In this document: piece by piece, positions 4,265 to 22,540 of the stretch
Numbering within the stretch: the first letter of the stretch is position 1
Layout: each line of letters begins with the position of its first letter
Virus record (IMG/VR): IMGVR_UViG_3300013372_002243
Coordinates: 1 to 24,016 of that record
Reading direction: 5' to 3' (one strand)
Origin: a virus
Length of the DNA stretch: 24,016 bases
Notes under the pieces: model-generated
Databases searched by the model: none
Told to the model about the DNA's origin: nothing
The model's input: only the letters and a program-made list of their open reading frames with translations
Program-made: the position numbers and the translations under genes

Positions 4265-4801
4265 ATGGCACGACTGAGCGTTGAGGAACGGTTCGTGAGC
4301 CGGGTTGTCAAGTCTGACGGATGCTGGTTGTGGAGCGGTCGAAAGGGGACTCACGGCTACGGAGTGTTCCGGATCAAGTGGACGGACTCCGGGGTTCTGT
4401 CTCATCGTCACGCTTACGAGGTCGCCAACGGACCGATCCCGGACGGGCTCTGCGTCTGCCATCGCTGCGACGTTCCTCTGTGCGTCAATCCGTCTCATCT
4501 GTTTCTCGGGACGTCGGCGGAAAACAACGCTGATCGAGTCGCCAAGGGCCGGTGTGCGTGGGGTGATCGTAACGCGGCACGTAAGCATCCAGAGTCGATT
4601 TGCCGTGGTGAAAAGGTCGGTAGTGCGGTGTTGACGAATGCGATTGTCTATGAGATCCGGAAAAGGTTCGCCTCCGGCGAGACGAAACGGGAACTGAGTC
4701 AGAGTATGGGGATTCCGTACTCAACTGTTCGCAACGTGGCCGACGGGAAGACTTGGAAACATCTACGTGCCGGTGACGGCGACAGTGCTTTGATCGAATG
4801 A
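4265..4801 (+). CDS. HNH homing endonuclease (HNH_3 type) with C-terminal HTH
   Basis: A 178-residue free-standing phage HNH nuclease. The beta-beta-alpha-metal core is visible: SHRHAYE (His47/His49), then CVCHRCDVPLCVNPSHLFLGT with Cys65, Cys68, Cys73, Asn75 and His78, followed by the typical SAENNADRVAKGR helix. Residues about 125-170 (IRKRFASGETKRELSQSMG, then TVRNVADGKTWKHL) form a helix-turn-helix, presumably for target recognition. The start at ATG 4265 has GGAG 8 nt upstream. The frame extends back to an ATG at 4142, but that stretch codes through the structured leader and adds no domain sequence. Such genes invade intergenic sites and spread by cutting unoccupied alleles. Confidence 0.88.
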   Translation: MARLSVEERFVSRVVKSDGCWLWSGRKGTHGYGVFRIKWTDSGVLSHRHAYEVANGPIPDGLCVCHRCDVPLCVNPSHLFLGTSAENNADRVAKGRCAWGDRNAARKHPESICRGEKVGSAVLTNAIVYEIRKRFASGETKRELSQSMGIPYSTVRNVADGKTWKHLRAGDGDSALIE

Positions 4802-4859
4802 AGTCCGGGGCCTCGCGGTGGGGCCTCGGTCGTGCGGTGAAATCTGAAAGGGTGCAAAC

Positions 4860-5162
4860 ATGGCGGTCAAAAGGTCGATGGTTGAGTTGATGCGGGCGTT
4901 GGTGGACGCGGCGAGGGTGGACGCGGTCACGGAGTCGCTGCTGGCGGAGTGCGAGTCGCGGCTCCGGGCACAGAAGAAACAGGTCACGAAGGCCGCGAAG
5001 GCGTCGGCGAGGTCCGGGAACTCCGGACGGCCGGGGATGCCGGAGGAGATGCGGCAGGCGATCTTGGCGCATCCGGGGGACAACTACCAAACGGCGGACG
5101 CCTTCGGGGTCCACTACGAAACGGTCCGAAGACTGAGGAAGGCCGTCCGTGACGAAACGTGA
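4860..5162 (+). CDS. Small basic HTH-like protein
   Basis: A 100-residue protein whose N-terminal half is helical and charged (VDAVTESLLAECESRLRAQKK). A basic Ala/Lys linker follows, then a C-terminal segment EEMRQAILAHPGDNYQTADA plus FGVHYETVRRLRKAV that reads as a helix-turn-helix with the recognition helix at YETVRRLRKA. A regulator or DNA-binding accessory is likely. The start at ATG 4860 is preceded by GAAAGGGTG, the ribosome-binding sequence used repeatedly in this region. Its 3' end overlaps the putative 57-aa gene starting at 5149. Confidence 0.65.
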   Translation: MAVKRSMVELMRALVDAARVDAVTESLLAECESRLRAQKKQVTKAAKASARSGNSGRPGMPEEMRQAILAHPGDNYQTADAFGVHYETVRRLRKAVRDET

Positions 5163-5322
5163 ATACTTTAACCGGCTGATGTTGGAGCCGGTCTGGTGGC
5201 TCCAAGGGAACGCGGAACGGCCGTCTGTCGGGATGACGAGGGTTCACGTCTTGTTGTCCCGGCTGGCGGTGCGGAAAAAACTATTTCCACAAATCCGAAA
5301 AAACGCTGGCGAATTGCGTTGA
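5149..5322 (+). CDS. Putative 57-aa protein
   Basis: A short frame starts at GTG 5149, overlapping the previous gene by 14 nt, with a good ribosome-binding site (GAGGAAGG, 6 nt spacer), and ends at TGA 5320-5322. The product begins MTKREYFNRLMLEPVWWLQG and has a basic, Leu-rich second half (VHVLLSRLAVRKKLFPQIRK). No family is recognised. The last third runs through the conserved upstream element of the following promoter, and the stop lies inside its -35 hexamer, so the gene may be marginal. The good Shine-Dalgarno is the main support. Confidence 0.45.
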   Translation: MTKREYFNRLMLEPVWWLQGNAERPSVGMTRVHVLLSRLAVRKKLFPQIRKNAGELR

Positions 5323-5396
5323 CAATCGGACGCGGGGAGACGATACTTCCTCCCGACGCGGTCAACGTGACTGCGGCCCCTGAAACGGACGACGAC
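5291..5396 (+). promoter_or_regulatory. Repeated promoter cassette, copy A
   Basis: A GATTCC-like box (AAATCCGAAAAAACGC, 5291-5306) lies 28 nt upstream of -35 TTGACA (5319-5324), then a 17-nt spacer and -10 GATACT (5342-5347). Downstream lie the conserved transcribed motif CGACGCGGTCAACGTGACTG (from 5354) and the leader box ACGGACGACGAC (5385-5396), just before the gene at 5410. The same arrangement recurs three more times between 7.6 and 10.8 kb. By its hexamers this is a sigma-70-type promoter; the flanking boxes are candidate activator or operator sites. Confidence 0.75.
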
Positions 5397-5409
5397 TTGG
5401 GAGACGATC

Positions 5410-5703
5410 ATGGCAACGACTGAAATCTACGGTGTCGCGGTGGTGGTGGGTGCTGGCTCGGTGATCGAGCCGGACGGATGGCAGATCTCGCAACGGCTCG
5501 AAGAATCGAGCTGGGACGCTGCCGAGTTCCGGATCCCAACGGGGCACGCCTTCGGGGTCACGAGTCTGGCCGTCAACGTGACTGTCACGGGCCGGACATG
5601 GGTGAGCCGATGCGGCGACTTGTGGACGCGGGTTAAGATCGAGTTCGTCGGAGACGGCGAACCTTCGGTGATGCACAAGGGCTGGATGCTCAAAACGGTG
5701 TGA
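5410..5703 (+). CDS. Hypothetical protein, 97 aa, behind promoter copy A
   Basis: It starts at ATG 5410, directly downstream of a complete promoter cassette and the repeated leader box. The product has a beta-rich look (EIYGVAVVVGAGSVIE, then SLAVNVTVTGRTWVSR and VKIEFVGDGEPSVMHKGWML), suggesting a small soluble beta-barrel or OB-like fold. I recognise no family or catalytic motif. A strong GC hairpin follows 13 nt after the stop, so it may be expressed as a short single-gene transcript. Early expression is inferred from the promoter. Confidence 0.62.
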   Translation: MATTEIYGVAVVVGAGSVIEPDGWQISQRLEESSWDAAEFRIPTGHAFGVTSLAVNVTVTGRTWVSRCGDLWTRVKIEFVGDGEPSVMHKGWMLKTV

Positions 5704-5716
5704 CGCTGGCGACAAT

Positions 5717-5741
5717 GCCCGGCCGGATGTTCCGGCCGGGC
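5717..5741 (+). terminator. Perfect 11-bp GC hairpin (terminator-like, no U-tract)
   Basis: GCCCGGCCGGA (5717-5727) pairs perfectly with TCCGGCCGGGC (5731-5741) across a 3-nt TGT loop, 13 nt after the stop of the preceding gene. The following bases are CCTTCAACGG, so there is no proper U-tract. It could be a weak terminator, a stability element or a processing site. The repeated leader box (5748-5760) begins 6 nt later. Confidence 0.55.
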
Positions 5742-5747
5742 CCTTCA

Positions 5748-5760
5748 ACGGACGACGAAC
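5748..5760 (+). repeat. Leader box ACGGACGACGAAC (family of about eight copies)
   Basis: ACGGACGACGAAC sits between the hairpin and the ribosome-binding site of the gene at 5776. Close copies lie at 5385, 7713, 7970 (ACGGATGACGAA), 8215, 10148, 10381 (an expanded form) and 10739, always a short distance before a start codon and often running into GAAAGGG. The shared position suggests a translational leader or processing element rather than coding sequence. Confidence 0.6.
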
Positions 5761-5775
5761 TGAAAGGGTGAGACG

Positions 5776-5985
5776 ATGAACGACGCAACACTTGAGGGCT
5801 TCCGACAGATCGCGGCGACGATGGCGGGAGAGCCGACGACATGGCAGTGGATCGGCCAGTTCGCTTCACAGAGGATGTTCGGGATCACGGAGAAGCGGGC
5901 GAAGGAATACGCGGCCCGACACGGCGGGGAGGCCCGCGACATGCAAACGTCGGAGCATGCGGGATTCGACAACGGCGGCGAGTGA
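5776..5985 (+). CDS. Hypothetical protein, 69 aa
   Basis: A small hydrophilic protein, MNDATLEGFRQIAATM onward, with a central KRAKEYAARHGGEARDM helix. The start at ATG 5776 has GAAAGGGTG 7 nt upstream, immediately after a leader box. The residues TTWQWIGQFASQRMFGI in the middle look like an amphipathic helix rich in aromatics. No family is recognised. It begins a run of closely spaced small genes extending to 7.6 kb. Confidence 0.6.
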   Translation: MNDATLEGFRQIAATMAGEPTTWQWIGQFASQRMFGITEKRAKEYAARHGGEARDMQTSEHAGFDNGGE

Positions 5986-6025
5986 AACCGGCGGCAGTGG
6001 TGGAAACCTACGGGGAGGTGAAACA

Positions 6026-6971: not shown

Positions 6972-7201
6972 TGGCTAGGCGATTCAGCGTTCCGCAGATT
7001 GGAGACCGAGTGAGAGTCTTGTCGTTCAGCGATGCCGTGAGCGGTCTTGGAACAGTCGCGTATAGCAGTCGAAATCTGACGAAAACACGAGGACAATTCG
7101 AGGTGCTGTGGTGCGTGCGGCTCGACTCGCATCGTCGAGTGGTTGGGTTTCATCGGTCTATGATTCGGATCGTATACCGAAAGCGACAGCCCGCGAAATG
7201 A
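6971..7201 (+). CDS. Small basic beta-rich protein, 76 aa
   Basis: ATG 6971 shares its A with the previous stop (TGATG). A GTG at 6968 would add one residue. The product begins MARRFSVPQIGDRVRVLSFS and continues VAYSSRNLTKTRGQFEVLWCV, alternating beta-strand-like segments with basic turns in the manner of an SH3-like or KOW-type fold. It ends in a basic RIVYRKRQPAK tail. The nucleic-acid-binding reading is an inference from composition. No family is recognised. Confidence 0.58.
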   Translation: MARRFSVPQIGDRVRVLSFSDAVSGLGTVAYSSRNLTKTRGQFEVLWCVRLDSHRRVVGFHRSMIRIVYRKRQPAK

Positions 7202-7202
7202 A

Positions 7203-7271
7203 CACAACATCGGAACCGCGCAGCAATCAATCGACTGGCTCGACGGCCAGATCAAGAAAACAGGTGAGTGA
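7203..7271 (+). pseudogene. Remnant of a duplicated gene tail
   Basis: Between the genes at 6971 and 7271 lies a start-less coding remnant: HNIGTAQQSIDWLDGQIKK plus TGE, ending in TGA 7269-7271. It matches the C-terminus of the gene at 6729-6971 (TVLHSINWLDDEIKKGGA) in protein and DNA, down to the TGATGG junction with the next gene. Upstream in this frame there is a stop and no plausible start, so only the 3' end of the second copy survived. Confidence 0.55.
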
Positions 7272-7609
7272 TGGCGAACGAGTACACGGTGAACGTCCCG
7301 GCTGACGTGCGGTTCTTGGACAAGGTCTTCCGGGCTGGCATCGCGGCCGGTGGGAAACTCCCGAAGGGCGTGGCGGACACGTTCAAGCTGATTCACACGG
7401 GCGACGGGTGGCGGGTCGAAACGGCGACGGTAGGGCTTCACGGGGAGATCGCGGCGATGCGGTGGGCAAGCCGAATCAACACGCTGAGGACGCTGGTCTT
7501 GGACCCGGTGGACAAGCGGGCAACGACGCTGACTTTCGAGGGCGTGCGGTACACGGTGGCGGCGGCCAAGGACATGCTCGCCAGAATGGAAGCCGGGATG
7601 AGCTGTTGA
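7271..7609 (+). CDS. Hypothetical protein, 112 aa
   Basis: It starts at ATG 7271 (TGATGG junction; GTG at 7268 is the alternative). The N-terminal part, NEYTVNVPADVRFLDKVFRA, reads like strand-helix. The middle holds KLIHTGDGWRVETATVGLHG and a helix AAMRWASRINTLRTLVLDP, and the end is AAAKDMLARMEAGMSC. This is a compact alpha/beta domain of unknown function. It is the last gene before promoter copy B. Confidence 0.6.
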   Translation: MANEYTVNVPADVRFLDKVFRAGIAAGGKLPKGVADTFKLIHTGDGWRVETATVGLHGEIAAMRWASRINTLRTLVLDPVDKRATTLTFEGVRYTVAAAKDMLARMEAGMSC

Positions 7610-7620
7610 ACTATTTTCGA

Positions 7621-7725
7621 GATTCCGAAAAAACGCTGACGAATACGGTTGACGAATCTAGTGGCGGAGACGATACTACACGCAACGCGGTTGACGTGAC
7701 TGCGAACCCCGAACGGACGACGAAC
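7621..7725 (+). promoter_or_regulatory. Repeated promoter cassette, copy B
   Basis: GATTCCGAAAAAACGC (7621-7636) lies 28 nt upstream of -35 TTGACG (7649-7654), with a 17-nt spacer and -10 GATACT (7672-7677). The transcribed motif CAACGCGGTTGACGTGAC starts at 7683 and the leader box ACGGACGACGAAC is at 7713-7725. This is the best-conserved copy and serves the 59-aa gene at 7739. Confidence 0.78.
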
Positions 7726-8237: not shown

Positions 8238-8522
8238 ATGATGACTTCAACGGGTTTCCAGATGGCGGTGGCAAGGACGATGGACCGGATGACTGAGTCC
8301 GAACGTCAAGCGGTACGTGAGGCAATCCGGGGCGGGTCGCGGCCAACAGAGCTGTGCCGCTACCGGGAGGGCGGACCGCTGGTCTTGCGATGCGAGGTTC
8401 CGGCCTCGTGGCGGAAGCTGGAGGTCTTCCAGAACGCTCGGGATCTCAACTGCACGATCCCGGCTGACAAGGAGGCGGCGACAATTGCGTGGTTCAATAC
8501 TTTGAAAGGTGGTGTGCGATGA
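8238..8522 (+). CDS. Hypothetical protein, 94 aa
   Basis: ATG 8238 lies 7 nt after the leader box/GAAAGGG. The product begins MMTSTGFQMAVARTMDRMTE, a helical charged segment, followed by LCRYREGGPLVLRCEVPASW, which is strand-like, and a helical end DKEAATIAWFNTLKGG. No family is recognised. Its TGA (8520-8522) overlaps the next ATG (8519), so the following gene is translationally coupled. Confidence 0.6.
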   Translation: MMTSTGFQMAVARTMDRMTESERQAVREAIRGGSRPTELCRYREGGPLVLRCEVPASWRKLEVFQNARDLNCTIPADKEAATIAWFNTLKGGVR

Positions 8523-8740
8523 TCGGAATCGGAACGACGGTCGAGGTGGCGGGGGTCAAGGATGCTGTGGTAGTGGGCTTGATCCGCAAGGGGACGCGGA
8601 CCCGCAAGGCACTGTGGCAAATCACGTACACGGTGGACGACCAGTTTGAGCGGGACAATCCGACGGGCAAGCGGTATTCGCAGCCACGTTTCGAGAACGA
8701 GCTGAAAGAAATATCCGGGGAGCCGGTTCCGTCGTTGTGA
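8519..8740 (+). CDS. Small beta-rich hypothetical protein, 73 aa
   Basis: It starts at ATG 8519 in an ATGA overlap. The product, MIGIGTTVEVAGVKDAVVVG then TRKALWQITYTVDDQFERD, has the strand-turn-strand pattern of a small SH3-like barrel with an acidic/basic tail. A longer frame reaches back to 8489 but would overlap the previous gene further. Function unknown. It is the last gene before the 188-nt inverted-repeat element. Confidence 0.58.
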   Translation: MIGIGTTVEVAGVKDAVVVGLIRKGTRTRKALWQITYTVDDQFERDNPTGKRYSQPRFENELKEISGEPVPSL

Positions 8741-8759
8741 CGGCCGGGCGATTGAGGAT

Positions 8760-8947
8760 GAGGCCAAAAACTTCGCCGCTTCGATGATCGTGAGCGATCC
8801 GCGACACCGATAAGCGAGTCCGGGAAAGGCGTCAGGTCGAGGGATGCTTCGTAATGCCTGAAAGCCCCGGCGGGAGTGGCTCACGGTGACACGTCCGACA
8901 GGACGAGATGCTAGTAGACTCCAAGAAGCGGCGAAGTTTTTGGCCTC
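8760..8947 (+). ncRNA. 188-nt element closed by a perfect 23-bp stem (structured RNA or MITE)
   Basis: The 242-nt gap between genes contains an exact 23-bp inverted repeat: 8760-8782 (begins GAGGCCAAAAACTTC) and 8925-8947 (ends GAAGTTTTTGGCCTC). The interior folds further. GATCG/CGATC pair at 8786-8799 with a 4-nt loop. A compound stem has CCGG 8820-8823 with 8867-8870, GGC 8828-8830 with GCC 8864-8866, and CAGG 8833-8836 with CCTG 8857-8860. CGTCC/GGACG pair at 8892-8905 around GACA. GAGTC 8816-8820 can also pair with GACTC 8917-8921. This fits a multibranched noncoding RNA. A miniature transposable element with terminal inverted repeats is the alternative; no clear target-site duplication is seen. 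Confidence 0.6.
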
Positions 8948-8982
8948 GTGATGTGTGGGAAACTTCAAAAAAAGGGTGCAAG

Positions 8983-9501
8983 ATGACGATTCAACTGCCG
9001 ACGGTACACTTGAACGGAACGAGCAAAGCGGAGCTGCTGGAAACGCTGGGCGAGGCGTCGGAAGCCTTGGACGCGGCCTTTCGGGCGGTCAAGCAAACGG
9101 GGCCGAACGGTCGAGACTATTACCCGCAAGGGCCGGGTGAGATGGCGAGGGCGGTGACGGAACACGACAGCCGTCTTCGGCGGATCGACGATCTCAAGGC
9201 GGAGATCGAAGCCTTGGTGGAAGGAATTGAGGACGGAGGGGCACTGCACGACCGGGCGACGGTCCCGACTCCGGCCCGTCGTAGTGACGATCCGGGGAAG
9301 GTCTACTGGACGGCCCGCATCGGTGTGGATCGTCTGTGGGTGATCGACGGCTACTGTCTTGAGTCTCACGGGCTGACGCGGGTGTTGTCGGACGACGCGA
9401 GCTTTTCGCGGTCCGGTGAGATCGTGGCGGAGATCGAAGCGGGGCCGGACCGTGCGGAATGCCTTGAGATCGCGGCCGAAGCGTGCGAGGGGGATCTGTG
9501 A
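8983..9501 (+). CDS. Conserved phage hypothetical protein, 172 aa
   Basis: ATG 8983 is preceded by AAAAAAAGGGTG. A longer frame from 8908 would code through the 3' arm of the inverted repeat and is less likely. The N-terminus LPTVHLNGTSKAELLETLGE and the following RDYYPQG/ARAVTEHDSRLRRIDDL resemble a hypothetical protein common in phage and prophage early regions, whose function I do not know. Residues about 105-172 (GKVYWTARIGVDRLWVIDGY onward) look like a separate beta-rich domain. The first half is probably helical. Confidence 0.65.
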   Translation: MTIQLPTVHLNGTSKAELLETLGEASEALDAAFRAVKQTGPNGRDYYPQGPGEMARAVTEHDSRLRRIDDLKAEIEALVEGIEDGGALHDRATVPTPARRSDDPGKVYWTARIGVDRLWVIDGYCLESHGLTRVLSDDASFSRSGEIVAEIEAGPDRAECLEIAAEACEGDL

Positions 9502-9728: not shown

Positions 9729-10057
9729 ACGAAACGCGACGAATCCCGCTGAACGTGCATCACTTCGTCCGGGACGGAATGCACAGAACTGACGCCGGGC
9801 TATTGGAGATCGAAGAACTGAACGAGATGGTCAACGACGCTTTGACGAACGGGGATCGCAAGCGGGCCGAAAAAGTGGCGACGGAAGCGGCGGCGATGGT
9901 GTCGCTGGCTCCGGAGGCGTGGGCGGTGCTGGAGAGGATAGAGCTTGTCCGGCGTGGGTTCGATAAGTTCTCCGGACCGGAACTCTTCGAGGTCGTGAAC
10001 GATCTGTTGAAGCGGCGGGACACGGCGGCCGGTGGGTCGGTGAAACTGTTTCGCTGA
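9725..10057 (+). CDS. Hypothetical helical protein, 110 aa
   Basis: ATG 9725 overlaps the previous stop. After RIPLNVHHFVRDGMHRTDAG the protein is almost all helical, with repeated acidic/basic heptad-like segments (LLEIEELNEMVNDALTNGDR, AEKVATEAAAMVSLAPEAW). No catalytic motif or family is recognised. Its TGA at 10055-10057 overlaps the first bases of promoter copy C. Confidence 0.6.
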   Translation: MNETRRIPLNVHHFVRDGMHRTDAGLLEIEELNEMVNDALTNGDRKRAEKVATEAAAMVSLAPEAWAVLERIELVRRGFDKFSGPELFEVVNDLLKRRDTAAGGSVKLFR

Positions 10058-10160
10058 TTCCGAAAAAAACACGCGGATTGATGTGGACAAACGAACGCGG
10101 GGAGACGATACTCCCTACATGCAACCAACGCGGTTGCGACAAACCGAACGGACGACGAAC
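10056..10160 (+). promoter_or_regulatory. Repeated promoter cassette, copy C
   Basis: GATTCCGAAAAAAAC (from 10056) lies 28 nt upstream of -35 TGGACA (10084-10089), with a 17-nt spacer and -10 GATACT (10107-10112). The downstream motif CAACGCGGTTG is at 10126-10136. Here it is flanked to give a perfect inverted repeat GCAACC (10121-10126)/GGTTGC (10132-10137). The leader box ACGGACGACGAAC is at 10148-10160. It serves the 56-aa gene at 10171. Confidence 0.75.
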
Positions 10161-11281: not shown

Positions 11282-12046
11282 ATGGTAATTCGTGATCGGA
11301 TCAAAGAACTGCGTCGCGTCCCAGCTTCGTCGCTGGTGGTGAATCCTGAGAACTGGCGGGAGCATCCGCCGGAGCAGCGGGCCGCGTTGCGGGCTGTCCT
11401 CGAAGCCATCGGCTTCGCCGGGGCGGAACTGACGGTGGAGCTGCCAGACGGTCGCTTGATGCTGATCGACGGCCATCTGCGCCGTGAGGAAGCTGGCGAC
11501 CAGATCGTCCCCGTCCTCGTGACGGACCTGACGGAGAACGAGGCCCGCGAGATGCTGGCGACGTTCGACCCAATCGGAGCGATGGCGACCACGAACTCGG
11601 CGGCTGTTGACGCCCTGCTTGGGAAGGTCCAGCTCGAAAGCCCGGCGTTGAAGGAAATGTTCCGCCGGTTGTCGGATGACGCGAAAGACGTCGAGCGATC
11701 CCAACGCATCGAAGATCCGGATGGCGAGACGCTGGACCGGCTCCGCGTGACGGAAGGCTACAAGCCGCGTCACGAAGTCAAACGCGGGGAGGTGTTCCGA
11801 ATCTCCGACCGCCATTTCGTCGCGTGTCTGGACGTGATGAACGACTGGCGGGTGTGGGGCCGGTTCCTTGAGATGTGCGGGGACGCGGCGATGTTCTGCC
11901 CGTACGGCGGCCCGCTCGTGCTACTGACGGCGACGGCGAAGGTCCGGCCGGTCGTGATTGTCCATCCGCTGCCGTTCGTGTGCGGGGTGATTCTGGACTG
12001 GGTGGAGGATGCCAGCGGGCCGGAGGCGATCACGAACTATGCCTAA
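11282..12046 (+). CDS. ParB/Srx-like domain protein with reduced C-terminal domain
   Basis: A 254-residue protein. Residues about 8-80 form a ParB/Srx-like N-terminal domain: PASSLVVNPENWREHPPEQR, then the ELPDGRLMLIDGHLRREEAG core with the GH-R signature, and VPVLVTDLTENEAREMLATF. The helical linker that usually follows is present. In many phage proteins this domain is fused to an adenine methyltransferase; here the C-terminal part (GEVFRISDRHFVACLDVMND and after) keeps the lead-in but I see no DPPY-type motif. It opens the deazaguanine operon and overlaps the transglycosylase start by 8 nt. It could guide the modification machinery to DNA. Confidence 0.72.
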   Translation: MVIRDRIKELRRVPASSLVVNPENWREHPPEQRAALRAVLEAIGFAGAELTVELPDGRLMLIDGHLRREEAGDQIVPVLVTDLTENEAREMLATFDPIGAMATTNSAAVDALLGKVQLESPALKEMFRRLSDDAKDVERSQRIEDPDGETLDRLRVTEGYKPRHEVKRGEVFRISDRHFVACLDVMNDWRVWGRFLEMCGDAAMFCPYGGPLVLLTATAKVRPVVIVHPLPFVCGVILDWVEDASGPEAITNYA

Positions 12047-13001
12047 AACGGTTTACTTTCTGGCGGCTGGCATCAGCGACGGGGAGATCGTCGCGAAGGA
12101 ATACGGGGCGATCCTCGTTCCGATAACCTCGATCAAGTCGAAGGCGGATCTCGCCCGCGTGAGGGGGTGGATCGCGAGCGGCGTCAAGGTCCTGCTCGAT
12201 TCCGGGGTCTTCGAGCTGTGTTCGGCTCACGCGAGGGACAACGGCATCCAACTGACGGAGGCCCTTGGGCTTCCGCCGGAACAGGTGGACGGGTTCGCTG
12301 GCCTGCTCGATCACTACACGAGGGTCGGGAAAGAGCTGAGCGGCGAGGCGTTCGCGTTGGTCGAGATCGACCTCGGCGGGAAGGTCCGGAAGCGGGAGAC
12401 GCGGGCATCGCTCGAAGCGATGGGACTCAAGATCGCTCCGGTGTTCCATCCGATCCTCGACGGGTGGGAATACCTCGACGAGCTGGCGGAAACGCACTCG
12501 ATCATCATGTGCGGAAATATGGTTGACGCGAACAGGGCGGATCGATGCGGGGCACTGTCAAGAATGCTGGAGTGGAAGGGGCGTCATCCGGGGGTGTGGC
12601 TGCATCTGCTCGGCGTGACACCGTCTCCGATGTCGGTCGCGTTGCCGATAGACTCCTGCGACTCGTCGGCGTGGGCGAGTGCGATTCGGTGGTTCAGTGG
12701 GTGGCAGGAGTTCGCACTCGGCGGAAGCGTCGGGCGGTTCGGTCGAGACATGGCTTATACGCTCGGGAGCCGCGTGAGCTACGAGCACACCTTGAGGATT
12801 CTGGCGATTCAACAAAACTGCCAAGCGTTGGGGATCAATCACTATCATGAACAACTCGACCGGATCGACGCGGACGCGGGTGTGGGTGACGCTGGAGTTC
12901 GAGGCGTGGCACCTGTGGGCCGACGCGCCAGAAAAACACGAGTACCTGCGGAGTCGCCACCGGCATCTGTTCAAGGTCAGGATCGCGTGGACAGTGTCTG
13001 A
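12039..13001 (+). CDS. dpdA: DpdA-type DNA guanine transglycosylase
   Basis: DpdA enzymes, related to tRNA-guanine transglycosylases, exchange guanine in DNA for a 7-deazaguanine. This 320-residue protein shows the expected catalytic signatures: LLDSGVFEL (Asp54) and PIDSCDSSAW (Asp205/Asp208), in a TIM-barrel-like run of strands such as APVFHPILDGWEYL and HSIIMCGNMVD. The start at ATG 12039 overlaps the ParB-like gene by 8 nt. The operon partners FolE, QueD and QueE, which make the 7-deazaguanine precursor, support the call strongly. Oddly, its last 51 codons run through the next gene in another frame and read as low-complexity Arg/Pro/Gly, so the native stop may have been lost. Which DpdA subfamily it belongs to cannot be decided here. 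Confidence 0.82.
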   Translation: MPKTVYFLAAGISDGEIVAKEYGAILVPITSIKSKADLARVRGWIASGVKVLLDSGVFELCSAHARDNGIQLTEALGLPPEQVDGFAGLLDHYTRVGKELSGEAFALVEIDLGGKVRKRETRASLEAMGLKIAPVFHPILDGWEYLDELAETHSIIMCGNMVDANRADRCGALSRMLEWKGRHPGVWLHLLGVTPSPMSVALPIDSCDSSAWASAIRWFSGWQEFALGGSVGRFGRDMAYTLGSRVSYEHTLRILAIQQNCQALGINHYHEQLDRIDADAGVGDAGVRGVAPVGRRARKTRVPAESPPASVQGQDRVDSV

Positions 13002-13191
13002 ACTGGATCGGGAGTTCGAGTTCATTGAACGGAAGCGGGACTGCCTCGCGGCGATTGAGTCGGTGAAGCCGCACGCGGAAGGATGGTCCTGCGAGACGTG
13101 GGCAGCGGAACTGTTGAAGCTGTTCGGGGCAGTGTCGGTTTCGGTGTCTGAGGATGGCGAAAACGGGGCCGAGGTGGAGGTCGTCGTATGA
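12847..13191 (+). CDS. QueD-like (T-fold) paralogue; candidate 7-carboxy-7-deazaguanine decarboxylase (DpdL-like)
   Basis: A 114-residue protein resembling 6-pyruvoyl-tetrahydropterin synthase/QueD but reduced: FEAWHLWADAPEKHEYLRSR then HRHLFKVRIAW matches the metal-site region (His of FEAWH, HRH in place of HGH), and SCETWAAELLKLFG matches the usual PTxEN helix. It lacks the catalytic Cys next to the HGH motif. A genuine QueD lies 0.5 kb downstream, so this copy must do something else. Published work on phage 7-deazaguanines predicts a CDG decarboxylase named DpdL; I propose this as a candidate by context, not by proof. It starts at ATG 12847 inside the transglycosylase gene and stops in ATGA with the transporter. 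Confidence 0.6.
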   Translation: MNNSTGSTRTRVWVTLEFEAWHLWADAPEKHEYLRSRHRHLFKVRIAWTVSELDREFEFIERKRDCLAAIESVKPHAEGWSCETWAAELLKLFGAVSVSVSEDGENGAEVEVVV

Positions 13192-13682
13192 GCTGGGCGG
13201 TCGTGGGGTTCTATCTGGCGGCGGCGGTGGCGGCGAATGGTCTCGTGGCGATCTTCGGCCCGTGGGTCCTGCCGCTGACGGGCGTGGTCCTGATCCCGTT
13301 CGACATGACGGCTCGCGACGTTCTTCACGAGCGATGGCGAGGGCCTTGGCTCTGGCCTCGGATGATCGGCCTCGTGGCGGCTGGCTCGGCGTTGTCGATG
13401 GTTGCGGCTCCGGCGGCCGTGTGCGTGGCAAGCGGGGCGGCGTTCCTCGTGGCTGGCGTGGTGGACGCGGTGACGTACCGGCTGCTTGAGGGGCGGCCGA
13501 AGCTGGTGCGAATGAACGGATCAAACGCGGCGGCGAGCGTGGCGGACTCGGTGGTGTTCCTGACGGTGGCGTTCGGCGGAGTACTGGTGCCTGTCGTCGC
13601 GTTTCAGGTGGCGGCGAAGGTGTGCGGCGGGTTCGTGTGGTCGCTTGTGATGGTAGGATGGAAGTCGAAGGGGACGGAATGA
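13188..13682 (+). CDS. VUT-family (YhhQ-like) queuosine-precursor transporter
   Basis: A 164-residue integral membrane protein with about five to six hydrophobic segments (near residues 4-22, 25-37, 58-76, 78-97, 117-137, 138-157). Family-like positions are LIPFDMTARDVLHERWRG between early helices and NGSNAAASVADSVVFLTVAFGG in the fifth, corresponding to the conserved Arg-Asp and S..aDS..F features of VUT/YhhQ proteins. These import preQ0/preQ1-type 7-deazaguanine bases across the inner membrane. Its place between a QueD-like gene and QueD fits salvage of precursors for DNA modification. ATGA overlaps on both sides show tight coupling. The substrate is inferred. Confidence 0.75.
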   Translation: MSWAVVGFYLAAAVAANGLVAIFGPWVLPLTGVVLIPFDMTARDVLHERWRGPWLWPRMIGLVAAGSALSMVAAPAAVCVASGAAFLVAGVVDAVTYRLLEGRPKLVRMNGSNAAASVADSVVFLTVAFGGVLVPVVAFQVAAKVCGGFVWSLVMVGWKSKGTE

Positions 13683-14107
13683 TAACAGCAACGCGACGGA
13701 TACAATTCTGCTCGGGGCATCGGGTGTTCGGCCACGAGGGGCACTGCCGGAACATGCACGGACACAATTACGTGGCGTTCCTTACGGCGGCTGCGAACTC
13801 TCGCGAACTCGATGGCGTGGGCCGCGTGGTGGACTTCTCGGTCCTGAAAGAGCGGGTCGGCGGGTGGATAGACGAAAAGTGGGATCACGGGTTCATCGCG
13901 TGGGTGGGCGACGCTGAGGCGGTGGAGGCTGTGCGAAGTGTCGGAGGCTCGAAGCTGTTCCAGTTGCCGAATAACCCGACGGCCGAGAACATGGCGGACT
14001 ATCTTCTGCGGTGGGTCGGCCCGCTGGTGCTGGCTGGCTCGGGTGTCGAGCTTGTCAAGGTCGTGTTGTGGGAGACAGAAAACTGCCATGCTGAGGTGAC
14101 GCTATGA
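13679..14107 (+). CDS. queD: 6-carboxy-5,6,7,8-tetrahydropterin synthase QueD
   Basis: QueD converts 7,8-dihydroneopterin triphosphate into 6-carboxytetrahydropterin, the second step towards 7-deazaguanines. All motifs are visible in 142 residues: the zinc ligands His14 (CSGHR) and His27/His29 in CRNMHGHNY, the catalytic Cys23, VVDFSVLKERV, the Asp69-His70 pair in WDHGF, the PTAENMADYLL helix and the terminal WETENCHAEV with Glu132. Length and order are normal. ATG 13679 overlaps the transporter stop, and its own TGA overlaps the QueE ATG, so it is the middle of a tightly coupled operon. Confidence 0.93.
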   Translation: MITATRRIQFCSGHRVFGHEGHCRNMHGHNYVAFLTAAANSRELDGVGRVVDFSVLKERVGGWIDEKWDHGFIAWVGDAEAVEAVRSVGGSKLFQLPNNPTAENMADYLLRWVGPLVLAGSGVELVKVVLWETENCHAEVTL

Positions 14108-14712
14108 CTTACAGGGTGAACGAGGTCTATCGGTCGCCGCAAGGCGAGGGCGGGCGAGTGGGACACGACAGCGTGTTCCTTCGGTTCACTGGCTGCAATC
14201 TGCGGTGTGCGATGGAGCCGGGGCCGAAATCGCCGGGCGGGTTCGACTGCGACACGGAGTTCGAATCCGGGCGGACGATGACGCTCGGCGATCTGGTGTC
14301 GTGGGTTCGTGAGGAAGCGGGCGAGGTGTGCCGCTGGGTGGTGGTGACAGGCGGGGAGCCTGCGCTGCAGTTGGACGCGGATCTCGTGACAAGTCTGCAC
14401 GATGCGGGATTCCTGATCGCGGTGGAGACGAACGGGTCTAAGGCGTTGCCGGACGGCATCGACTGGATCACGGTCTCGCCCAAGGTCGCGGAACACGCGA
14501 TCCGCCAGCGGACGGCGACGGAGGTAAAGTACGTGCGAGGCTACGGACAGGCGTTGCCGGAAACGGTGGTTGAGGCGGAGCAGTATTACATTTCGCCGAC
14601 GTTCGCCGGGCTGGAGCCCGATCCGCGTGCGGTGGCATGGTGCGAACAACTGGTGAAGGGGACGAAGTGGAAACTCTCGATGCAACAACACAAACTGCTC
14701 GGCCAGCGGTGA
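14104..14712 (+). CDS. queE: 7-carboxy-7-deazaguanine synthase QueE (radical SAM)
   Basis: QueE is a radical-SAM enzyme that rearranges 6-carboxytetrahydropterin to 7-carboxy-7-deazaguanine. Seen: the N-terminal YRSPQGEGGRVGHDSVFLRF substrate/SAM region, TGCNLRC with Cys31 and Cys35, then a third Cys in FDCDTEF (Cys49), and GGEPALQLD at 83-91. The cluster motif is therefore C-X3-C-X13-C instead of the classical C-X3-C-X2-C, meaning an insertion between the second and third ligand; expanded spacings are known in some QueE proteins. 202 residues is a normal size. The start ATG 14104 overlaps the QueD stop. Confidence 0.92.
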   Translation: MTYRVNEVYRSPQGEGGRVGHDSVFLRFTGCNLRCAMEPGPKSPGGFDCDTEFESGRTMTLGDLVSWVREEAGEVCRWVVVTGGEPALQLDADLVTSLHDAGFLIAVETNGSKALPDGIDWITVSPKVAEHAIRQRTATEVKYVRGYGQALPETVVEAEQYYISPTFAGLEPDPRAVAWCEQLVKGTKWKLSMQQHKLLGQR

Positions 14713-15539
14713 CGGAAGTCTCGTGGAAAGATGTCGTGGCGAGGATTGAGACGAAGCTCAGCGGGTTCAGCCGGGTCTACGGCGTGCCGACAGGCGGGGT
14801 GATCGTCGCGGCGATGTCGGGCCGGATGGTTCACGCGGTGAGCGAAGCGGACGTGATCGTGGACGATCTCGTGGATTCCGGGGCAACTCGCCAGCGGTAC
14901 GCGAACACGGGGAAGCCATTCGTCGGACTGTGGGACAAGAAGGACGGGAGCGGGGACGAGCGGCTGGGCTGGATCAAGTTCCCGTGGGAAGTCCAACACG
15001 CGCCGGAGGACGCTGTCGTCCGGCTAATCGAATGGTGCGGGGAAGATCCTCGGCGGGACGGTCTGCTGGAGACGCCGAAGCGTGTCGTGAAGGCGTTCCG
15101 AGAGATGACGAGCGGCTACGCGGACGATCCGGCTGTGATTCTGTCGAAGACCTTCGACGAGAAGTGCGACGAGATGGTGGTCGTTTCGGGGATCTCGTTC
15201 ACGTCGTTGTGCGAACATCACCTCCTGCCGTTCACGGGGACGGTGGACATTGGCTACGTGCCGGGGAAGGTTGTGGGGCTGTCCAAGCTGGCCCGGCTGG
15301 TGGACTGCTTCTCAAGACGGTTCCAGATTCAAGAGCGGTTGACGGCTCAGATCGCGGACGCAATCGATAACGCCTTGGACGCGAAGGGCGTGGCCGTGGT
15401 GGTTCGGGGCCAGCACGCTTGCATGAGCTGCCGGGGTGTCCGGAAGGCGGACGCAACGATGGTCACAAGTGCGATGCGGGGAATCCTGATCGGGGACGCT
15501 CGGGCACGGTCGGAGTTCTTGGCGTTGTGCAGAGGCTGA
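14709..15539 (+). CDS. folE: Phosphoribosyltransferase-like domain fused to GTP cyclohydrolase I (FolE)
   Basis: Two domains in 276 residues. Residues about 10-95 resemble a type I phosphoribosyltransferase: GVPTGGVIVAAM, then the PRPP-binding motif DVIVDDLVDSGAT (48-60). Residues about 96-276 are a type I GTP cyclohydrolase: RDGLLETPKRVVKAF, SLCEHHLLPFTG with Cys168 and His170/171, SKLARLVDCFSRR, and ACMSCRGV with the distal Cys ligand. FolE makes dihydroneopterin triphosphate from GTP, the entry step for QueD. The start is uncertain: GTG 14709 gives a GTGA overlap with QueE, while GTG 14667 (with GAAGGGG upstream) or ATG 14637 would extend the N-terminus. The fusion partner may serve base or nucleotide salvage; that is inference. 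Confidence 0.88.
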   Translation: MTEVSWKDVVARIETKLSGFSRVYGVPTGGVIVAAMSGRMVHAVSEADVIVDDLVDSGATRQRYANTGKPFVGLWDKKDGSGDERLGWIKFPWEVQHAPEDAVVRLIEWCGEDPRRDGLLETPKRVVKAFREMTSGYADDPAVILSKTFDEKCDEMVVVSGISFTSLCEHHLLPFTGTVDIGYVPGKVVGLSKLARLVDCFSRRFQIQERLTAQIADAIDNALDAKGVAVVVRGQHACMSCRGVRKADATMVTSAMRGILIGDARARSEFLALCRG

Positions 15540-20707: not shown

Positions 20708-20895
20708 AATGGCTCGGGTCAGACCTGACGAACGAAAATCACTCGACCCCGTTGAAGCGGCTGGTCAATCCGCTGATGCGAGCCCTGCTAGGGTGGCACG
20801 TTGCGAGCGTGATCCGAGTCGAGCCAGACGGAGTGGCTCGATTCGAGCGGTATGTGCTGAGGCGGTGTTGCGTAGCTGGGGGGTCGCGTGGCTGA
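20704..20895 (+). CDS. Small hypothetical protein, 63 aa
   Basis: It starts at GTG 20704 in a GTGA overlap and ends 8 nt inside the next gene. The product (MKWLGSDLTNENHSTPLKRL then VNPLMRALLGWHVASVIRVE) looks like a plausible basic helical domain, followed by GVARFERYVLRRCC. Another frame across this region (from 20709) is Arg/Ser-rich and looks like a shadow. No family is recognised; the gene is supported by coupling and composition only. Confidence 0.48.
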   Translation: MKWLGSDLTNENHSTPLKRLVNPLMRALLGWHVASVIRVEPDGVARFERYVLRRCCVAGGSRG

Positions 20896-22540
20896 ACTCG
20901 AAGACCGAATGCAACGTGAGGCGAAGCTGGCGGCGTTGCTGTCCCGTGTGGGGGCGAACCAACGGCGTGAGCTGGAGAAGCTGCTCGGCAATCCGCCGGA
21001 CATCCGGAACGTCCCGGAAACGTGGTGGGACGATTCCCGAAAGGAAATCGAAGAGGTCTTGATCGCGTTGCTTCTACTGACGTTCGCGGCGTCGGCGTTC
21101 GCTCACGGGCTGGACAAGGTGAGAGCGGCGGCACGGGCGGAAGCGTGGGCGACACGGACGGGGGCGAGGATCGCGAAGGAGATGGTCCGGAACACGCGGA
21201 CGGGGCTTCGTGTGTCGCTGCGTGGAATCGTCGTGGGCGGAAAGCCGGTGAGTCTGGCGGATCTCCGGCAAGTGACGGTGCGATGGCTCGGCCCGGCCCG
21301 GTGGTCAAATGTCGCGACGACGGAGACGACGCGGGCGCAACACTTCGGCTCGGAATACGGGGTCGAAGAAACCGTCGGGCTGAGCAAGGACGACTATTGG
21401 GTGACGTCCGGGGACGCGAAGGTCTGCCCCGTCTGTGCCCCGCTGAACGGCACGACGCGGCCGGTGTGGTCCCGCAAGTTTCCGGGTGGGCCTCCGGAAC
21501 CGCACGTGAACTGCGTTCTGCCGGGGCAACTGGTGAACGTGCCGGGGTCAATCATCGCGGCGGCCAAATCGTTCTATGATGGACCGAGTGTTGAGATACG
21601 ACTTGCGAACGGGAGCGTCCTGTCCGCCACCAAGAATCACCCGGTACTGACTGACAAGGGATGGGTCGCGGCGGGACTGCTCGACGAAGGCCGCAACGTA
21701 TTCAGCAGCCTTCACGGTGAGCGGGTCAGTTCGGCTATCAACCCAGATGATGATAATCGACCAGCCGTTGTCGAGGAGATATTTGCAACGCTCCGGATGA
21801 CTGGCGAGATGGCGGCCGGAGGCGTGCCAGTTACCTCCGAAGATTTCCACGGCGATGGGGAGTTCCTTCACGGCGAAGTCGAGGTTGTACGGCCCAACGG
21901 ACTTCTGCTGGGTGAACGCGACGCCGGAGACGGCGAGCAACTCTACGAATCGTTGCTCCAGCGGAGACGAACGGGAGCCGGTTCGTTCGTGAGTGGAGGA
22001 ACGCCGGGACTTCTCGGTGGCGGTGACGACGCGGCCACGGGCTGCGATGTGTGCGGGAGCGACTTGGGATCGGCGTTGAGCCTCGGTCATGCGGCTCCAC
22101 TTGACGGACTCCGACTCAGACTGATTGCGGAGCGGGACGCATTTCTCTACCAGATGGCGGCGAATGACGGCTCGGGACACTCCGGCCGAACGCGACAAGG
22201 ACAACTCGGACTCGCCAGCGGAATAGCGACTCGCAATCGAATCGGCGTCTACGAGGATGATCCGCTTCTTTCCGGGCTGTCGAGGTCGAACGAAACCGTT
22301 GCGCTTCATCAACCCGTAGAACCAGACGGGACGGCCTCCGGCCTCTGGAGCGAGTTTGTCAACAGGTTCGCCAGCGAGGTAGCGACTTCCGAAGTGGTCG
22401 AGGTCAATCATCGTCGGTACAGGGGCCATGTTTACGATCTCCAAGTGAGCGGGGACGAGCTTTACATTTGCGGCGGCGTCGTGGTTCACAACTGTCGCTG
22501 CTACATATCGTATGCGATGGCTCCGGTGAAGTCACGCTGA
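20888..22540 (+). CDS. Minor head (SPP1 gp7/Mu F-like) morphogenesis protein, interrupted by an intein
   Basis: A 550-residue precursor. Residues 1-208 and 536-550 are the host protein: helical start, TTETTRAQHFGSEYGVEETV, and the Cys-Pro-X-Cys-like metal site KVCPVCAPLNGTTRPVW ending PEPHVN, which continues after the intein as CRCYISY. Joined, this gives the HxNCRC signature of the phage head morphogenesis (gp7/F) family, 223 residues long. These proteins sit inside the head near the portal and assist assembly. The start is GTG 20888, overlapping the previous small gene by 8 nt. Without splicing the metal site would be destroyed, so excision is presumably required for function. Confidence 0.85.
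   Translation: MAELEDRMQREAKLAALLSRVGANQRRELEKLLGNPPDIRNVPETWWDDSRKEIEEVLIALLLLTFAASAFAHGLDKVRAAARAEAWATRTGARIAKEMVRNTRTGLRVSLRGIVVGGKPVSLADLRQVTVRWLGPARWSNVATTETTRAQHFGSEYGVEETVGLSKDDYWVTSGDAKVCPVCAPLNGTTRPVWSRKFPGGPPEPHVNCVLPGQLVNVPGSIIAAAKSFYDGPSVEIRLANGSVLSATKNHPVLTDKGWVAAGLLDEGRNVFSSLHGERVSSAINPDDDNRPAVVEEIFATLRMTGEMAAGGVPVTSEDFHGDGEFLHGEVEVVRPNGLLLGERDAGDGEQLYESLLQRRRTGAGSFVSGGTPGLLGGGDDAATGCDVCGSDLGSALSLGHAAPLDGLRLRLIAERDAFLYQMAANDGSGHSGRTRQGQLGLASGIATRNRIGVYEDDPLLSGLSRSNETVALHQPVEPDGTASGLWSEFVNRFASEVATSEVVEVNHRRYRGHVYDLQVSGDELYICGGVVVHNCRCYISYAMAPVKSR
21512..22492 (+). mobile_element. Intein (327 codons) in the minor head gene
   Basis: Protein-splicing (Hint-fold) signatures bracket the insertion. 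Block A is CVLPGQLV with Cys1 at 21512-21514. Block B is NGSVLSATKNHPVL with the TxxH pattern (Thr40, His43). At the C-terminal end RGHVYDLQVSGDELYICGG matches block F, and VVVHN is block G (penultimate His326, Asn327 at 22490-22492), followed by Cys+1 (TGT at 22493) of the extein. No LAGLIDADG or HNH motif is visible in the sense frame. Instead the middle carries a nuclease gene on the opposite strand. The insertion site is the conserved Asn/Cys junction of the metal-binding signature, typical of inteins targeting invariant sites. Confidence 0.88.
21548..22429 (-). CDS. Antisense homing endonuclease inside the intein: two HTH-like segments plus Vsr/DUF559-like nuclease
   Basis: A 293-residue protein on the minus strand, entirely within the intein. 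ATG (complement of 22427-22429) has GGAG 9 nt upstream; the next ATG is at 22411 and a GTG at 22489. Residues about 8-50 and 60-105 are two HTH-like segments (LDHFGSRYLAGEPVDKLA; DADSIASRYSAGESELSL then SAGVSRAVIRRHL). A basic linker (MTEAQRRSQVAPAHIAARGR) follows. Residues about 156-230 are a Vsr/DUF559-type PD-(D/E)XK nuclease: SPLEQRFVELL (Glu158), VGPYNLDFAV (Asp184), LPIAVEIFGGNWH (Glu195, His202), then HPERCKYLLDNGWSIIIIWV. Vsr-like (EDxHD) nucleases are known homing enzymes. Unlike ordinary intein endonucleases it is not in frame with the splicing domain. Confidence 0.85.
   Translation of the reverse strand: MAPVPTMIDLDHFGSRYLAGEPVDKLAPEAGGRPVWFYGLMKRNGFVRPRQPGKKRIILVDADSIASRYSAGESELSLSRSAGVSRAVIRRHLVEKCVPLRNQSESESVKWSRMTEAQRRSQVAPAHIAARGRVVTATEKSRRSSTHERTGSRSSPLEQRFVELLAVSGVAFTQQKSVGPYNLDFAVKELPIAVEIFGGNWHASGRHLASHPERCKYLLDNGWSIIIIWVDSRTDPLTVKAAEYVAAFVEQSRRDPSLVSQYRVILGGGQDAPVRKSYLNTRSIIERFGRRDD

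Follow-up and report, generated by a model that had tools for sequence, protein, structure and literature searches.

A single-copy, non-coding 188-bp element with perfect 23-bp inverted-repeat ends in a phage genome: a possible MITE-like insertion

Retron ncRNAs have a long a1/a2 closing stem, and the sites at which RNase III processes phage operons, e.g. those of T7, are compact hairpins. Bacterial MITEs measure 70–300 bp, carry terminal inverted repeats (TIRs) of 15–30 bp and have no coding capacity; examples are ERIC, NEMIS, RUP and Nezha (PMC3733652). The element reported here, 188 bp in length, shows the MITE anatomy: size, TIR length and absence of coding capacity all fall within these bounds, and in addition it is situated next to genes and can be folded as RNA. 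It differs from bacterial MITEs in being single-copy, in lacking a target-site duplication and in having no cognate transposase that could be found. Since these two defining marks, target-site duplication and multiple copies, were looked for and are not present, the element is not assigned to the MITEs and is MITE-like only. It is a non-coding insert bounded by an inverted repeat, of the broad kind of palindromic intergenic inserts already known.

Other systems share some features with it. The long closing stem and an interior of similar size are found in retron ncRNAs as well, but the adjacent reverse transcriptase that marks a retron is not there; its absence from the window had been noted originally, and this holds also for the 57.9-kb genome of a sister phage. 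In T7-type RNase III sites, too, a stem lies between the genes of a co-directional operon, but the stem of the present element spans an interior of 142 nt and the sister lacks the whole of it. The high copy number and Y1 RAYT transposase of REP/REPIN sequences are not seen for this phage, nor, in a window that is a fragment, are the recombinase and internal promoter of an invertible segment. Similar in length and architecture is a 182-bp palindromic element of Schlesneria (contig L018, positions 7088–7269, 29-bp arms), but the two sequences are dissimilar, and three of the four Schlesneria MAGs searched each hold approximately 90 matches to the Schlesneria element.

The window, i.e. the whole stretch of DNA analysed, is an entire IMG/VR record of 24,016 bp and represents a fragment of a phage genome. 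The only close relative found, here called the sister, is IMGVR_UViG_3300032401_000578 (57.9 kb), which is ~88% identical over colinear blocks. The host is uncertain and perhaps a planctomycete. The top TerL matches (~52% identity) belong to Schlesneria; TerL yielded only relatives at ~50% identity, spread over several phyla. The sister TerL gene (L145, positions 4311–5469) carries ~0.9 kb that the window gene does not have; this extra sequence is probably an intein or an intron. The features in and around the element are as follows.

8489–8740, plus strand: upstream small gene, 83 aa; positions 8720–8747 (last codons and next bases) are identical in the sister
8748–8759, no strand: left flank, GCGATTGAGGAT; aligns poorly to the sister, and the right flank is not a duplicate of it
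8760–8782, plus strand: left arm, perfectly complementary to the right arm over 23 bp
8783–8924, no strand: non-coding interior, 142 nt; fold z-scores of −1.5 and −0.6, within background
8925–8947, minus strand: right arm, perfectly complementary to the left arm over 23 bp
8948–8954, no strand: right flank, GTGATGT; sister-shared sequence resumes at 8955
8983–9501, plus strand: small gene downstream of the element, with its start (ATGACGATTCAACTGCCG) at 8983; its phage family is recognisable by PTVHLNGTS

The original prediction was of a 188-nt element closed by an exact 23-bp terminal inverted repeat between small genes, and complementarity of the arms confirms it: 23 of 23 positions pair across the 142 nt, all as Watson-Crick pairs. 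In RNA form the stem grows to 25 pairs by the addition of one U-G and one A-U. This is the longest inverted repeat with a spacing of 300 nt or less in the window, where the runner-up measures 12 bp, and it is far beyond chance. A search for further copies of the 23-bp termini in the same genome had been suggested, and none is found elsewhere in the window even when three mismatches are tolerated (chance expectation 0). Phage and bacterial loci totalling 1.68 Mb hold only four perfect inverted repeats of at least 20 bp with a spacing of 40–350 nt; the feature is thus rare, but it is one of a recurring class of palindromic inserts. No convincing open reading frame is present in the element, as had been said. 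The possibility that the interior is a gene remnant was considered for the plus-frame peptide CDGRAIEDEAKNFAASMIVSDPRHR and for a minus frame and was rejected, there being no convincing phage relatives of either. The remark that no U-tract follows the element is also borne out; neither a U-tract nor an intrinsic terminator is detected nearby.

The sister phage shows an empty site. Window positions 8720–8747 are identical to positions 5225–5252 of the sister locus L014, and similarity restarts at window position 8955, which corresponds to L014 position 5263. The sister joins both flanking sequences with just 10 nt between them; the whole element is missing there, and no copy is found elsewhere in the 57.9-kb sister genome. 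The element thus represents a discrete lineage-specific insertion (or loss), and gain is the simpler reading, though on a comparison with one close sister loss may also account for it. Polymorphic presence of this type, seen here against one sister phage, is a mark of MITEs. Among 19 contigs carrying the PTVHLNGTS motif, the sister included, none displays a comparable inverted repeat upstream of the PTVHLNGTS gene, the longest being 13 bp. Thus the element is confined to this lineage. The neighbourhood is a variable stretch and an indel hotspot. The sister is without ~220 bp of the upstream gene and has an HNH-like open reading frame inside the downstream gene, where this HNH-type-looking frame (L014, positions 5397–6007; family judged by eye) interrupts or replaces part of the coding region.

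A target-site duplication of more than chance size is not found: nothing abuts the arms, the longest word common to both flanks is 4 nt, and such shared 4-nt words are fewer than in most random flanks. A second copy of the element is absent from the phage, the sister, INPHARED phages, PLSDB plasmids and 170 planctomycete genomes of the Schlesneria family, and the paired-arm pattern gives no hit in IMG/VR or in 392 genomes from the same phylum (planctomycetes). A 17-mer of the arm is found in 10 IMG/VR contigs, none with an inverted partner nearby; these read as chance coding matches (AKNFAA-like codons) and were set aside. Weak DNA matches in the 170 Schlesneria-family genomes and in Schlesneria MAGs were likewise set aside as short and due to chance, several of them lying inside long open frames. 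The arm pattern revealed no element that carries a transposase and uses the same ends, the search being of a kind that cannot pair the ends of long elements. As a control, the 182-bp palindromic Schlesneria element was run with the same tool against four Schlesneria MAGs, which gave 94, 93, 15 and 89 matches. Since the control yields ~90 matches per genome, a multi-copy element would have shown if the host were among the genomes searched. Of the recombinase families searched for, namely serine resolvases, tyrosine recombinases and Y1 transposases, none is found in the window or in the sister. One of the two readings originally offered, a non-autonomous transposable element with 23-bp termini, is plausible on its anatomy and gains from the empty site in the sister, but finds neither a target-site duplication nor a further copy in anything searched.

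The reading preferred here, with a rough probability of 0.45, is that of a MITE-like, non-autonomous insertion bounded by inverted repeats and passively transcribed with the operon. A single-copy, non-coding insert of ~190–200 bp would have landed between two co-directional small genes, most likely moved in trans by a transposase encoded outside the phage sequence. Transcription of the operon would run through the element, and in the mRNA the arms would form a double-stranded stem of 23–25 bp separating the 83-aa gene from the gene at 8983. Lying between these genes, the stem would probably serve as an RNase III cleavage site or as a stability element. The perfect arms around a non-coding interior, the empty site in the sister and the indel-rich surroundings point to such an insertion. 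Against it, an element that has moved recently and has perfect arms should as a rule show a target-site duplication and none is seen here, neither a second copy nor a recombinase was found, and the comparison has a single close sister.

The perfect arms with neither target-site duplication nor second copy, and the indel-rich surroundings, are also what would be expected of replication debris, i.e. a 23-bp inverted duplication produced by template switching while the phage replicated or recombined, at an illegitimate-exchange hotspot; neither a mobile element nor a function would be involved. The sister would then never have had the segment, or would have lost it by hairpin-mediated deletion. 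But an inverted copy of 23 bp does not by itself explain a ~200-bp absence in the sister that ends near the arms, and this origin is considered unlikely.

The other original reading was a phage-encoded noncoding RNA. It may be framed as a structured ncRNA, or as an intergenic RNA processed from the operon transcript, in which the long closing stem is functional. The element is on the coding strand and flanked by co-directional genes, and the whole element folds with a z-score of −5.6 relative to shuffled sequence. But the minus strand is no less structured (z = −7.7), and the 142-nt interior without its arms gives z-scores of only −1.5 (plus strand) and −0.6 (minus strand), compared with a window background of mean −0.25 and sd 1.1. 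In the plus strand 21 of 300 shuffles are as stable as the interior, which is thus not more stable than shuffled sequence. Because the arm-free interior sits inside the window background, the fold signal is that of the inverted repeat itself. Both strands fold equally well because all arm pairs are Watson-Crick, as a repeat at the DNA level would give. A strong fold z-score out of a perfect inverted repeat is not in itself evidence for a functional RNA.

Internal hairpins had been proposed as part of a multibranched fold. Complementary short words do exist and the hairpins can be drawn, with a plausible inner hairpin at ~8828–8866 and a 5-bp hairpin at ~8892–8905, but they do not make up the preferred fold: the helices originally named score −48.8 kcal/mol alone, compared with a minimum free energy of −69.9 kcal/mol for the element, and in the minimum free energy fold positions 8786–8799 pair otherwise than in the hairpin drawn there. 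A search of Rfam gave no match at the gathering score nor up to E = 5. Readings as a group I or group II intron, a riboswitch or a tRNA-like structure were dropped, with no Rfam or ARAGORN match. The covariance search that had been called for was run with a single-sequence model and gave no match in 170 planctomycete genomes and 1.35 Mb of related loci (no positive control); by arm-pattern, DNA and covariance-model searches alike, no homologues of the element were found. A long hairpin situated directly after the terminase gene in two Schlesneria contigs (L017, positions 2919–2998 and L019, positions 11331–11407) has arms that differ in sequence between the contigs but are complementary within each, and would lend itself better than the 188-bp element to a covariation test.

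Neither a promoter-like nor a terminator-like site is found at the element, the closest promoter-like sites being at 7649 and 10084. The phage also carries an intergenic module of 74 nt in three copies that are 70–73% alike (5278–5351, 7608–7681 and 10043–10116). The module holds a sigma-70-like promoter (TTGACA-type, 17 nt, GATACT), and these sequences are probably repeated early promoters. With stability that comes from the arms, an opposite strand that is equal or better, no Rfam match, no promoter or terminator and a sister phage that manages without the element, the structured noncoding RNA is unsupported and is regarded as doubtful. A narrower version, in which a new type of phage small RNA restricted to one lineage has its long stem processed from the operon mRNA and acts in the host, is quite improbable.

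An assembly or amplification artefact is suggested by the fact that the junctions are known from a single sequence, the 24,016-bp IMG/VR record. But both sides run colinear with the sister, where a fold-back chimera would continue inverted, and an artefact is correspondingly improbable. Least probable is an invertible segment, in which the arms would be recombination sites and the 142-bp interior would flip and switch expression of the downstream gene: the repeats are perfect and their spacing would suit an invertible promoter, but the interior has no promoter-like site, no serine or tyrosine recombinase is found in the window (a fragment) or the 57.9-kb sister, and the segment is missing from the sister.

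Two further regions of the window deserve description. Positions 12009–15539 contain a 7-deazaguanine cluster consisting of a queuine tRNA-ribosyltransferase-like (DpdA-like) gene, a queuosine precursor transporter-like gene, QueD, QueE and FolE; the cluster suggests that the DNA of the phage carries a modified guanine. The minor head (MuF-like) gene at 20888–22540 (plus strand) contains an intein (Pfam Intein_splicing, 1.1e-9) that is missing from the sister. Antisense within this intein is a 313-aa open frame (21548–22489, minus strand) with weak matches to the nucleases REase_MTES_1575/DUF559. A similar frame is open opposite the head genes of Gordonia phage Vivi2 and Haemophilus phage Aaphi23, in which only the sense gene is annotated. 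In both phages the antisense frame is better conserved than the sense intein: identities are 35.6% (141 bits) vs 26.6% (80 bits) in Vivi2, and 30.5% (115 bits) vs 23.9% (48 bits) in Aaphi23. The antisense frame looks like a homing endonuclease gene encoded opposite its intein, possibly in a widespread intein type with the homing nuclease on the opposite strand. Titles and abstracts of the literature searched contain no description of this arrangement.

At present the 188-bp element is a single-copy oddity. If it is a MITE-like insertion, such elements enter the operons of tailed phages and may supply them with new sites of RNA processing, which would be a modest addition to phage mosaicism.
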